Assembly: GCA_003229235.1 (NCBI GenBank)
Contig: QIIH01000461.1
Span: 1 to 11,129 of the forward strand
Direction: 5' to 3'
Length of the DNA stretch: 11,129 nucleotides
Origin: Flavobacteriales bacterium
Lineage (GTDB): Bacteria > Bacteroidota > Bacteroidia > Flavobacteriales > Flavobacteriaceae
The first letter of the stretch is position 1, and every line of letters begins with the position of its first letter. The notes under the pieces are model-generated. The model saw only the letters and a list, made by a program, of their open reading frames with translations. It did not search any database and had not been told where the DNA came from. Both the position numbers and the translations under genes were made by a program. Positions 6,961 through 9,393 of the stretch are shown here, piece after piece.

Positions 6961-6989
6961 TAAAAATACAGTACTTTTGCTTTAAACAA
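6961..6989 (-). promoter_or_regulatory. Possible promoter of the SAM hydrolase-ABM-gldFG operon
   Basis: On the minus strand TATTTTTA (6961-6968) differs from TAnnTTTG at the last base, and a TTG lies at 6987-6989, 18 nt upstream. It would give a leader of about 30 nt. It overlaps the oppositely directed phoH -7 box, so the two promoters would share DNA and could interfere. Confidence 0.35.
6972..6979 (+). promoter_or_regulatory. Probable phoH-purC -7 box
   Basis: TACTTTTG is a perfect TAnnTTTG match, followed by C as often seen in flavobacteria. The nearest upstream TTG (6943-6945) is 26 nt away, longer than usual. It predicts a transcript starting near 6986 with a leader of about 210 nt that would contain the whole palindromic element A. 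Confidence 0.45.
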
Positions 6990-6992
6990 AAC

Positions 6993-7152
6993 GAACTCGT
7001 TTAAACTTTTTCTATTCCCTAAAAAATGACTGAAATTTGTCCATATTTTGTTACTTTTCTTATACATATCGCTGCTATGTACTTCAAAAAGTGCCTCATC
7101 TGAACAAGTTCCCTTTCATTTTCGGTTAAATACAAAAAGTTTAAACGAGTTC
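6993..7152 (+). repeat. Palindromic repeat element, copy A, in the phoH leader
   Basis: This is an approximately 160-nt near-palindrome. The outer arms are GAACTCGTTTAAACTTTTT (6993-7011) and its reverse complement with one extra T (7134-7152). Its core, 7006-7139, aligns with the reverse complement of copy B with about 17 differences by hand count. The first 55 nt are almost identical, including AAAATGACTGAAATTTGT at 7023-7040. The right inner arm (7101-7122) is eroded relative to copy B, so the middle stem is imperfect. The tip pairs ACATATC (7064-7070) with GCTATGT (7074-7080). It sits between the phoH -7 box and the phoH start and has no coding appearance. Confidence 0.85.
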
Positions 7153-7198
7153 AACTACATATTTATAAGTTTATTACCACCTAAAAAAAACCCTGCTT

Positions 7199-8152
7199 TT
7201 GAACGAACTTATCATCGAAATTACCCAATTGAATCCTCGTGAATTATTTGGACAACAAAACGCCAATATCGAACTCCTAAAAAAGTATTTCCCTAAACTA
7301 AAAATCGTGGCAAGAGGAAGCAAAATGAAGGTTTATGGCGAACCAGAATTGCTCGAAGAATTTGACAAACGTTTTACAATGATCATGGATCATTATCTTG
7401 AATACAATAAGCTTGACGAGAATTCGATAGAGCGAGTACTTACTAGTAACTCTAAAGAAGATTACAAGACTTCTGCTAAAAGCGGTGATGTACTGCTACA
7501 TGGCGTTAACGGAAAATTAATTAAAGCACAGACTGTAAACCAACGTAAATTGGTAGAATCTATGTGCAAAAACGACATGGTTTTTGCTGTTGGCCCAGCT
7601 GGTACTGGTAAAACCTATACAGGAGTTGCTTTGGCCGTAAGAGCACTTAAGCAAAAAGAAGTAAAGCGAATTATTCTCACAAGACCGGCTGTTGAGGCTG
7701 GAGAGAATCTTGGGTTTTTACCAGGGGATTTAAAAGAGAAGCTCGATCCTTATATGCAGCCACTATATGATGCGTTACGAGATATGATTCCGAACGAAAC
7801 TTTAGAGTCATATATAGAGAAAGGCTCTATACAAATTGCACCTATGGCCTTTATGCGTGGCCGAACTTTAGACAATGCATTTGTGATTTTAGATGAGGCA
7901 CAAAACACAACCCACGCACAAATGAAGATGTTTTTAACCCGTATGGGTAAAAATGCAAAATTCATGATTACTGGCGATCCAGGGCAAATAGATTTGCCTA
8001 GACGTGTTACTTCTGGACTAAAAGAAGCTTTATTAGTATTAAAGAACGTCGAGGGTGTTGGGATTATCCACTTAGACGACAAAGACGTAATACGTCACAA
8101 ATTGGTTAGGGAAGTAATCGCAGCTTATAAATCTATAGAGAACAGAGATTAA
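7199..8152 (+). CDS. phoH: PhoH family ATPase
   Basis: PhoH-like proteins are P-loop ATPases of the superfamily 1 helicase fold, often linked to RNA metabolism; the precise role is not settled. The 317-residue length is typical. An N-terminal RNA-binding-like region covers about 1-95. The ATPase core has Walker A GPAGTGKT at 132-139, [17 protein letters not shown] at 161-177, Walker B FVILDEAQ at 228-235 and the sensor [10 protein letters not shown] at 256-265. The start is TTG at 7199: the family N-terminus (NELIIEI...[10 protein letters not shown]) begins exactly there, no ATG lies upstream in frame, and the first internal ATG (residue 43) would remove conserved residues. The stop lies 1 nt before purC (TAAGATG), so the two form an operon. 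The long leader carries repeat element A. Confidence 0.95.
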
Positions 8153-8153
8153 G

Positions 8154-9107
8154 ATGAGTAATACCCTTACCCAGACCAACTTTAATTTTCCTGGCCAAAA
8201 AAGTGTTTACCATGGCAAAGTACGCGAGGTTTATACATTAGAAAACGACATTTTGCTTATGGTAGCAACAGATCGCCTTAGTGCTTTTGATGTAGTGATG
8301 CCAAAAGGAGTTCCTTTTAAGGGACAGATACTGAATCAGATTGCTACCAAAATGATGCAACTTACTCAAGAGATTGTTCCTAATTGGTTATTGGCTACAC
8401 CAGATCCCAATGTAGCGATAGGAGTGGCTTGTGAACCCTTTAAGGTAGAGATGGTTATTCGTGGTTATATGAGTGGTCACGCGGCTCGTGAGTATAAAGC
8501 TGGCAAACGTATATTATGCGGAGTTGATATGCCCGATGGAATGAAGCAGAATGATGCTTTTCCTATGCCTATAATTACACCTGCAACAAAGGCCGAACAG
8601 GGCGATCATGACGAAGACATTTCGCGAGAGGATATTCTTAAAAGAGGTATTGTTTCTGTCGACGACTACATGGTACTAGAGGATTATACAAAAAAACTTT
8701 TTAAACGCGGAACAGAGATAGCAGCGGCTCAGGGTTTAATTTTAGTTGATACTAAATACGAATTTGGTAAAACCAAAGAGGGCAAAATAGTATTGATAGA
8801 CGAAATTCACACTCCAGATTCGTCACGTTACTTTTATGCAGAAGGCTATCAAGAACGCCAACAAAACGACGAATCTCAAAAACAATTGTCTAAAGAGTTT
8901 GTGCGACAATGGCTTATTCAAAATGGTTTTCAGGGTTTAGAGGGGCAGCAATTACCAGAAATGAGTGATGGTTATATCGAGACAGTGTCCCACCGCTATA
9001 TTGAGCTTTACGAAAATATTACTGGCGATGCTTTTATTAAAGCCGATGTTTCTGAGATAGAATCACGAATAGAGAACAACGTTTTGTCTTATTTAAAAAC
9101 GCTCTAG
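8154..9107 (+). CDS. purC: Phosphoribosylaminoimidazole-succinocarboxamide synthase (SAICAR synthase)
   Basis: PurC joins aspartate to CAIR with ATP to give SAICAR in de novo purine synthesis. At 317 residues it belongs to the longer, yeast-like class rather than the roughly 240-residue Escherichia coli class. Signatures are GKVREVY at 21-27, [13 protein letters not shown] at 38-50, [17 protein letters not shown] at 98-114, [17 protein letters not shown] at 141-157, LVDTKYEFG at 197-205 and [13 protein letters not shown] at 214-226. It follows phoH with a 1-nt gap and is probably translated by coupling. Its stop TAG is 31 nt from the degraded DUF1304-like remnant and 62 nt from repeat element B, with no other terminator visible, so element B may form the 3' hairpin of the transcript. 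Confidence 0.98.
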
Positions 9108-9138
9108 TAACACTAATGCTATCGCAACTAGGGCTAGG

Positions 9139-9393
9139 TCCCTTGGTGGTTCAGGCGAACATTTCGAAATGAAGTGATCTTGATTTTTTGTTTTTAACCG
9201 AAAATGACTGAAATTTGTACAGATGAGGCACTTTTCGTAAGGCATAGCAGAGCTACGCATAAGAAAAGTAACAAAATATGGACAAATTTCAGTCATTTTT
9301 TAGGAAATAGAAAAAGGCAAGATGACTTCAATACAAAAAGTAAAGATGCAAGACTGCAACCAGACCAATAAAAATATTCTTTAAGATTTCCAT
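9139..9393 (-). pseudogene. Broken DUF1304-like membrane protein gene, split by repeat element B
   Basis: An ATG at 9391-9393, 7 nt behind the lipid A deacylase stop and on the same strand, opens a 21-codon ORF ending at 9328. It contains FIGLVAVLHLYFLY, which resembles the first helix of DUF1304 proteins (GLVAxxHLYxLY-LEMF-W pattern, from memory). Beyond element B, at 9139-9168, the same phase reads FEMFA-stop-TTKG, resembling the family continuation EMFAW-TTKGP with the Trp codon TGG changed to TGA. Removing about 162 nt (9169-9330) restores a continuous frame. After TTKGP the similarity ends and purC is reached, so the rest of the gene is lost. The N-terminal half is the stronger evidence; the second half is short and could be chance. 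Confidence 0.5.
9170..9330 (-). repeat. Palindromic repeat element, copy B, behind purC
   Basis: This is a 161-nt near-palindrome, inverted relative to copy A. Outer arms TGAAGTGATCTTG (9170-9182) and CAAGATGACTTCA (9318-9330) pair at 12 of 13 positions. Inner arms AAAATGACTGAAATTTGT (9201-9218) and ACAAATTTCAGTCATTTT (9282-9299) pair perfectly over 18 bp. The tip GCATAGC-AGA-GCTACGC (9242-9258) closes the hairpin with one G-T wobble, and CACTTTTC/GAAAAGTaA stretches bridge tip and inner arms. The fold therefore runs nearly end to end. It lacks a transposase and contains only an incidental ORF. It may also act as a terminator for phoH-purC. Confidence 0.88.

Follow-up and report, generated by a model that had tools for sequence, protein, structure and literature searches.

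The window analysed here, a stretch of 11,129 nucleotides, is contig C11 of a 2.27-Mb assembly in 511 contigs (G000). It carries SAM-HAT, phoH, purC, a PagL-like gene and one ABC-transporter gene, together with two further genes that we take to be mnmE-like and dnaN-like. Relatives, and the named matches of a transposase encoded on contig C305 of the same assembly, point to a flavobacterial host, and the bacterial family whose genomes were searched is presumably Flavobacteriaceae. Two short related elements lie between these genes. Copy A (160 bp, 6993-7152, plus strand) occupies the space between SAM-HAT and phoH, which are divergent, and defines the family and its orientation; copy B (159 bp, 9171-9329, minus strand) lies in reverse orientation between purC and the PagL-like gene, which converge. 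Both were delimited by a search for further copies in the genome and by their ends, and copy A also by an empty site; neither contains an open reading frame of ≥80 amino acids. Just upstream of copy A, at 6972-6979 on the plus strand, the sequence reads TACTTTTG, a candidate promoter-like box that resembles the Bacteroidetes -7 box TAnnTTTG. Copy A separates this box from phoH and, if the putative box is used, would belong to the phoH leader. At the corresponding empty site, TACTTTTG is kept in two of three congeners (G001 and G003) and G002 has TACATTTG.

Copy A is closed by a left terminal inverted repeat, GAACTCGTTTAAACTTTTT (6993-7011, plus strand), and a right repeat that is its exact complement (7134-7152, minus strand), so the self-complementarity claimed for these arms by the first-pass annotation holds with perfect pairing. 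Between them lies a core (7012-7133, plus strand) that alignment and folding characterize as an imperfect palindrome. AAC stands on either side (6990-6992 and 7153-7155), identified as a target duplication from the single AAC of the empty sites and from comparison of the flanks. The arms of copy B at 9171-9189 (plus strand; the right end in family orientation) and 9311-9329 (minus strand; the left end), placed by end comparison, are also complementary, but imperfectly, with 3 mismatches in 14 between GAAGTGATCTTGAT and GAAGTCATCTTGCC. They had been drawn out to 9170 and 9330; T9170 and A9330 instead belong to the AAT target duplication at 9168-9170 and 9330-9332, as read from the sequence and its flanks. 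At the tip of the hairpin, the first stem pair is indeed A-T in copy A and G-C in copy B, and the G-T wobble of copy B is A-T in copy A, as first described, but the same stem of copy A also contains a T/C mismatch that had been passed over.

Outer arms as terminal inverted repeats of a MITE family

Searching the host genome with copy A returned 14 copies, 12 of them full length and 2 cut by contig ends, and in the complete ones the paired outer arms match fully or nearly. Among 90 extracted copies or fragments, the end repeats match at ≥10 of 14 bases in 81, which is above chance. The arms fall into two recurrent types, RTTTAAAC and ATCTTGAC (in the host genome GAACTCGTTTAAAC and GAAGTCATCTTGAC), termed A-type and B-type after the two copies in the window, and the termini are GAA...TTC. 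The arms of copies A and B had been called unrelated in sequence, but both types begin GAASTC and intermediates connect them: GAACTCATCTTGAC, found on C261 and C283 of the host genome, and GAACTCATTTTAAC, found at L139 and L063. A single constant outer arm, named beforehand as the observation that would speak against a variable self-paired stem, is not what the copies share, but their recurrence in two types goes part of the way towards it. Two single end-like repeats of the host genome, one of A type and one of B type, have no close partner (L020, C208:848-869; L192, C175:3612-3630) and are possible remnants.

Exact 3-bp direct repeats stand outside the arms in 75 of 118 copies from the host and other genomes of the family, one site being counted twice, against a mean of 12.7 and a maximum of 22 with shuffled flanks. 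In all three congeners (G001, G002 and G003) copy A is missing from its site, where the sequence reads ACAAAACTAAGTATT, with a single AAC and without any palindrome; the arms of copy A thus belong to the element and not to the target. For copy B, no readable empty site was found in the genus, and the downstream gene order differs. Insertion into pre-existing palindromes such as terminators would make the arms target DNA and would account for their being unlike in the two copies; we found no evidence in its favour, the three empty sites refute it for copy A, and the flanks outside the duplication, in 118 copies, show no excess of palindromy over shuffled ones (3.35 versus 3.33 matches), so that we give this explanation practically no credence. 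Creation of the arms at insertion, also proposed at first, is refuted: arms of the same types appear again at unrelated sites, and full-length IS5-family elements have them too. A 160-bp family of miniature inverted-repeat transposable elements (MITEs), whose insertion duplicates 3 bp of AT-rich target, has these outer arms as its terminal inverted repeats. One locus of genome G142 (L270, C1:2436166-2436523) holds two tandem copies, 24 bases apart, with unlike end types.

IS5-family elements carry the same kind of ends

A 929-bp element at C305:4758-5686 of the host genome has the ends GAACTCATTTAAAACTTTT and GAAGTGATTTAAACTTTTT and encodes a 287-amino-acid transposase that passes the NCBIfam cut-off for IS5 (NF033580, 116.7 bits versus 110) and matches the DDE transposase models PF13340 and PF01609 above their gathering scores. 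This insertion sequence (IS) copy has no exact 3-bp target duplication, its flanks being TAT and ATA. Related transposases were found at 53 loci in one scan of named genomes, including Aquimarina, Sinomicrobium, Allomuricauda, Zobellia, Flagellimonas, Parapedobacter, flavobacteria and others. From 80 loci with related transposases came 30 distinct elements, 902-931 bp long, with such end pairs, mostly GAAGTGATTTAAAC or GAACTCATTTARAC; exact 3-bp repeats flank 17 of the 30. Exact B-type ends on both sides occur on one IS only (L224), whose transposase frame is broken, and close B-type variants are found on the ISs at L103 and L096. G142 contains ISs of either end type, A or B, as well as MITE copies of both types; no IS other than an A-type one was seen in the host genome, despite its B-type MITE copies. 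Matches between copy A and the transposase loci comprise 19-24 nucleotides of the ends at L089, L104 and L115 and one spot of 34 nucleotides at L097; similarity to the autonomous ISs is confined to the ends.

We consider it very likely that copies A and B are copies of one non-autonomous mobile element whose ends are recognised by IS5-family transposases, which would act on the terminal inverted repeats in trans and so mobilise it. A survey of 397 genomes of the bacterial family detected the element in 49 at E 1e-6 and, at E 1e-30, the transposase in 14, six having both; the element is thus held by 6/14 transposase genomes against 49/397 overall (Fisher P = 0.004), or by 5/13 when the host genome is excluded (P = 0.013). 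At E 1e-30, no transposase of the C305 group was detected in 43 of the 49 element genomes, including G009 with about 11 element copies; in such genomes the element must be served by a different transposase or by one since lost.

End type changes while the core persists

On a tree of the core (113 copies, 9 without assigned type), end type changes at least seven times, and a tree with all A-type copies in one clade is rejected (p-AU 0.0001; log-likelihood lower by 192). The core divides into two groups: one, of 31 copies, has only A-type ends (28, and 3 without type), and the other, of 82 copies, combines 23 A-type with 53 B-type. Stepwise change is possible because intermediates such as ATTTTAAC exist, and the switch may be due to recombination or to mutations that adapt the ends to the available enzyme. 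Both end types occur on IS5-family elements, and we infer that the MITE changes its ends to follow whichever transposase is available. The flavobacteria have here a widespread mobile element with a persistent core and a changing end type, a case relevant to the question of how MITEs outlast their parent transposases. A diverged copy in G009 (L297, C33:16230-16389) has the ends GAGACTGTTTAAAA, which resemble the end of ISPg4 as printed in one account (GAGACTGTTGCA; PMC4596501) and are possibly a third type.

Why the two arms of a copy match

Positions 4 and 6 are alike at both ends in 89/107 MITEs versus 7/30 ISs. Because the IS ends are unlike at these positions in the other 23/30, the IS5 enzyme seems to tolerate mismatch between ends. 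Rare end variants common to both ends number 21 cases in 100 copies, against a mean of 2.5 and a maximum of 11 when shuffled within type; several of the 21 come from related copies and five from one diverged copy, and those at L249, L260 and L261 are in single copies. The inner arm of copy B is an exact complement at positions left unpaired in other aligned copies. Correction of one arm by the other in quasi-palindromes is documented in Escherichia coli in the account of PMC7202029. Since the IS itself mostly has unlike ends, arm-to-arm copying within the palindrome probably keeps the same variant on both arms in part, and enzyme selection for like ends is an alternative cause that may apply. 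The complementarity of the arms, which shows no strand signature, is explained by transposase recognition, probably with copying between arms in addition.

A paired core with a strand-specific wobble bias

The hairpin was analysed in an alignment of 66 complete copies with a structure of 56 pairs, 37 in the core and 19 in the arms. Paired cells make up 92.5% of this structure against 83.2% after shuffling, and 94% in the arms. Double changes occur at 23/37 core pairs and 7/19 arm pairs, and none of 500 shuffles reaches the total of 30/56, a count that, as the covariation tool warns, relatedness can inflate. RNAalifold predicted no pairs in the 66 copies with default scoring, and the hairpin appears with RIBOSUM scoring; Rfam gave no match in the window at the gathering score. 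The core tree requires at least 96 changes between Watson-Crick types, 62 of them at core pairs. At 8-13% divergence, 17 double changes are kept in the core versus about 2.3 expected; among copies at ≤4% divergence there are 0 double and 18 single changes in the core, and 2 double and 10 single in the arms.

Departures from pairing on one side were counted in 49 independent nearest comparisons drawn from 113 distinct copies, at 54 pairs common to the folds of both strands. Read on the plus strand, core departures are A.C in 84 cases versus G.U in 29, that is, rich in G.U on the minus strand, and arm departures are A.C in 29 versus G.U in 27 (core versus arms, Fisher P = 0.005). A minus-strand reading is opposed by two conserved pairs, at columns 38/135 and 77/95, which are G.U when read on the plus strand. 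With a structure derived from the plus strand, which favours G.U and includes these two pairs, the core gives 85 versus 41 (P = 0.048 against the arms), and with one derived from the minus strand 116 versus 32. Counted by columns with the two contrary pairs left out, the ratio is 15 versus 5 in G142 (P = 0.04) and 18 versus 3 elsewhere (P = 0.0015). In the core, G to A (37) and T to C (47) exceed C to T (17) and A to G (12), and arm departures are spread evenly over the four transition types (15, 14, 15 and 12). A single mutational bias does not explain the wobble bias, because both routes contribute and the unpaired core columns have no excess of G to A (29 versus 81 C to T, as raw counts uncorrected for composition). 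The minus strand also folds more stably in 109/113 copies (41/43 in G142 and 68/70 elsewhere), a proportion that partly reflects shared ancestry.

In the core, compensatory changes maintain pairing, and the wobble bias is in favour of the minus strand. Folding has often led palindromic MITEs to be described as RNA-like, although it is a property of every inverted repeat; in the present family RNA-likeness can be tested, the ends providing an internal control without sign of single-strand selection and the core departing from pairing in a strand-specific manner. Selected RNA structure, the remaining option of the first-pass annotation, accordingly fares differently in the two parts, failing for the strand-neutral arms, which are transposon ends, and surviving for the core, with its compensatory changes and strand-specific wobble bias. 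The proposal that the outer arms are kept as the stem of a structured RNA with a freely varying closing helix would suit the high proportion of paired arm cells, the double changes at arm pairs and their occurrence even between close copies. It is largely refuted, and to our minds very improbable, given that the ends are mainly of two recurrent types that also stand about 900 bp apart on IS5-family elements, that exact 3-bp target duplications begin at the arm ends, and that arm departures and transitions are balanced between strands.

Template switching in a quasi-palindrome could instead have produced the covariation of core and arms entirely, with no selection on a hairpin. Such switching, of the kind documented in E. 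coli as described in PMC7202029, fits the exactly complementary inner arm of copy B, the matched rare variants in single copies and the double changes between the arms of close copies. Acting alone, it predicts no wobble strand bias, which the core has through both transition routes, and the core shows no double changes among the closest copies, where few are expected by chance. We regard it as an unlikely complete explanation, though one to be taken seriously. Selection of the core as a hairpin in one strand, either as RNA or as single-stranded DNA, is the reading that we moderately favour from these patterns.

Comparison with known palindromic elements

At 159-160 bp, non-coding and well under 500 bp, with terminal inverted repeats, target duplication and, for copy A, an empty site, the element has the features of a type II MITE and is a new member of the IS5-related, palindromic kind. 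In type II MITEs as characterized in PMC10969869, only the terminal repeats are in common with an autonomous IS, as here; unlike them, this family has a core conserved across genera and an end type that changes on the core tree. The IS5-related MITEs described from Porphyromonas gingivalis (BrickBuilt, MITEPgRS and MITE239/700) are similar in having a Bacteroidetes host, no transposase, ends that match resident IS5-family elements, and filled and empty sites that together reveal the target duplication; going by their description, they differ in their ends, in the 23-nucleotide tandem repeats of BrickBuilt and in a duplication of variable length against 3 bp here (PMC4596501).

Enterobacterial ERIC (IRU, RU-1) elements, at about 127 bp, are likewise bounded by terminal repeats, present in many hosts and transcribed into hairpins, and their effect on mRNA is said to depend on orientation; as described in PMC2229807, they are set apart by other hosts and by 5'-TA termini, against GAA...TTC here, and an ERIC identity was rejected on the termini. 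The Correia (NEMIS) elements of Neisseria resemble the present family, by their description in the same source, in terminal repeats, target duplication, hairpin and proposed effects at the RNA level, and differ in TA termini and hosts (PMC2229807). A literature search covering sources other than subscription papers and ISfinder found no description of the 160-bp element. REP and BIME sequences are not known to have terminal repeats or target duplication. Identity with them was rejected: the present element measures 160 bp and has terminal repeats and a 3-bp duplication, against the 20-40-bp palindrome associated with the RAYT transposase in the account of PMC3733652.

Distribution and neighbouring genes

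G142 holds at least about 49 element copies among the matches listed. BLAST gave no match in 15 genomes of other families of the order, and a covariance model with strict filters found the element in 5 of 395 genomes drawn from the phylum, all five from the same family, a draw that thus includes members of that family. The plasmid and phage records searched contained no match to copy A, and viral contigs none to one exact 24-base pattern. A structured cargo with a functional one-strand hairpin, spread through dozens of flavobacterial genera by swapping ends to suit the IS5-type transposase of the host, is a picture that we offer only tentatively.

Neighbouring genes, called by a simple open-frame rule, were scored for 58/66 copies of the cross-genus set, in which L181/L187 and L065/L154 share neighbours: both neighbours are on the minus strand in 28, both on the plus strand in 9, divergent in 18 and convergent in 3. 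The left element end faces a gene start in 46/58 of these copies (alignment A1), versus 17/38 in G142. The corresponding neighbour counts in G142 (38/40 copies scored) are 9, 14, 8 and 7, and same-strand neighbours of the ISs number 8 versus 7 (22/30 scored). Bias in orientation and proximity to start codons were therefore rejected as a general property, being present in the cross-genus set and absent from G142. Retention of older copies was rejected as a cause of the bias, the ratio of minus to plus being 8:4 without and 20:5 with target duplication (57/58 rows), and so was a shared regulated neighbour, since related neighbours form 12 small clusters among the 66 copies, none larger than three.

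These counts also weigh on the idea that copies are kept because the hairpin of the minus strand acts in cis, as an mRNA leader controlling neighbouring genes. The gene starts beside the left end, the excess of minus over plus neighbours in the cross-genus set and the position of copy A between the promoter-like box and phoH are in keeping with such a role; the lack of bias in G142, a bias no stronger in copies without duplication than in those with it, and the few neighbours common to different genomes argue against it, and we judge it distinctly improbable. What we favour for the core is selection for pairing in one strand, whether as RNA or as single-stranded DNA. Some intergenic regions hold the element in different genomes with differing orientations: L139, L173 and L185 adjoin what we take to be a folK-like gene, and L134 and L178 lie between genes that are presumably leucine dehydrogenase-like and nusB-like. 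Both groups of sites look as if they had been hit independently.
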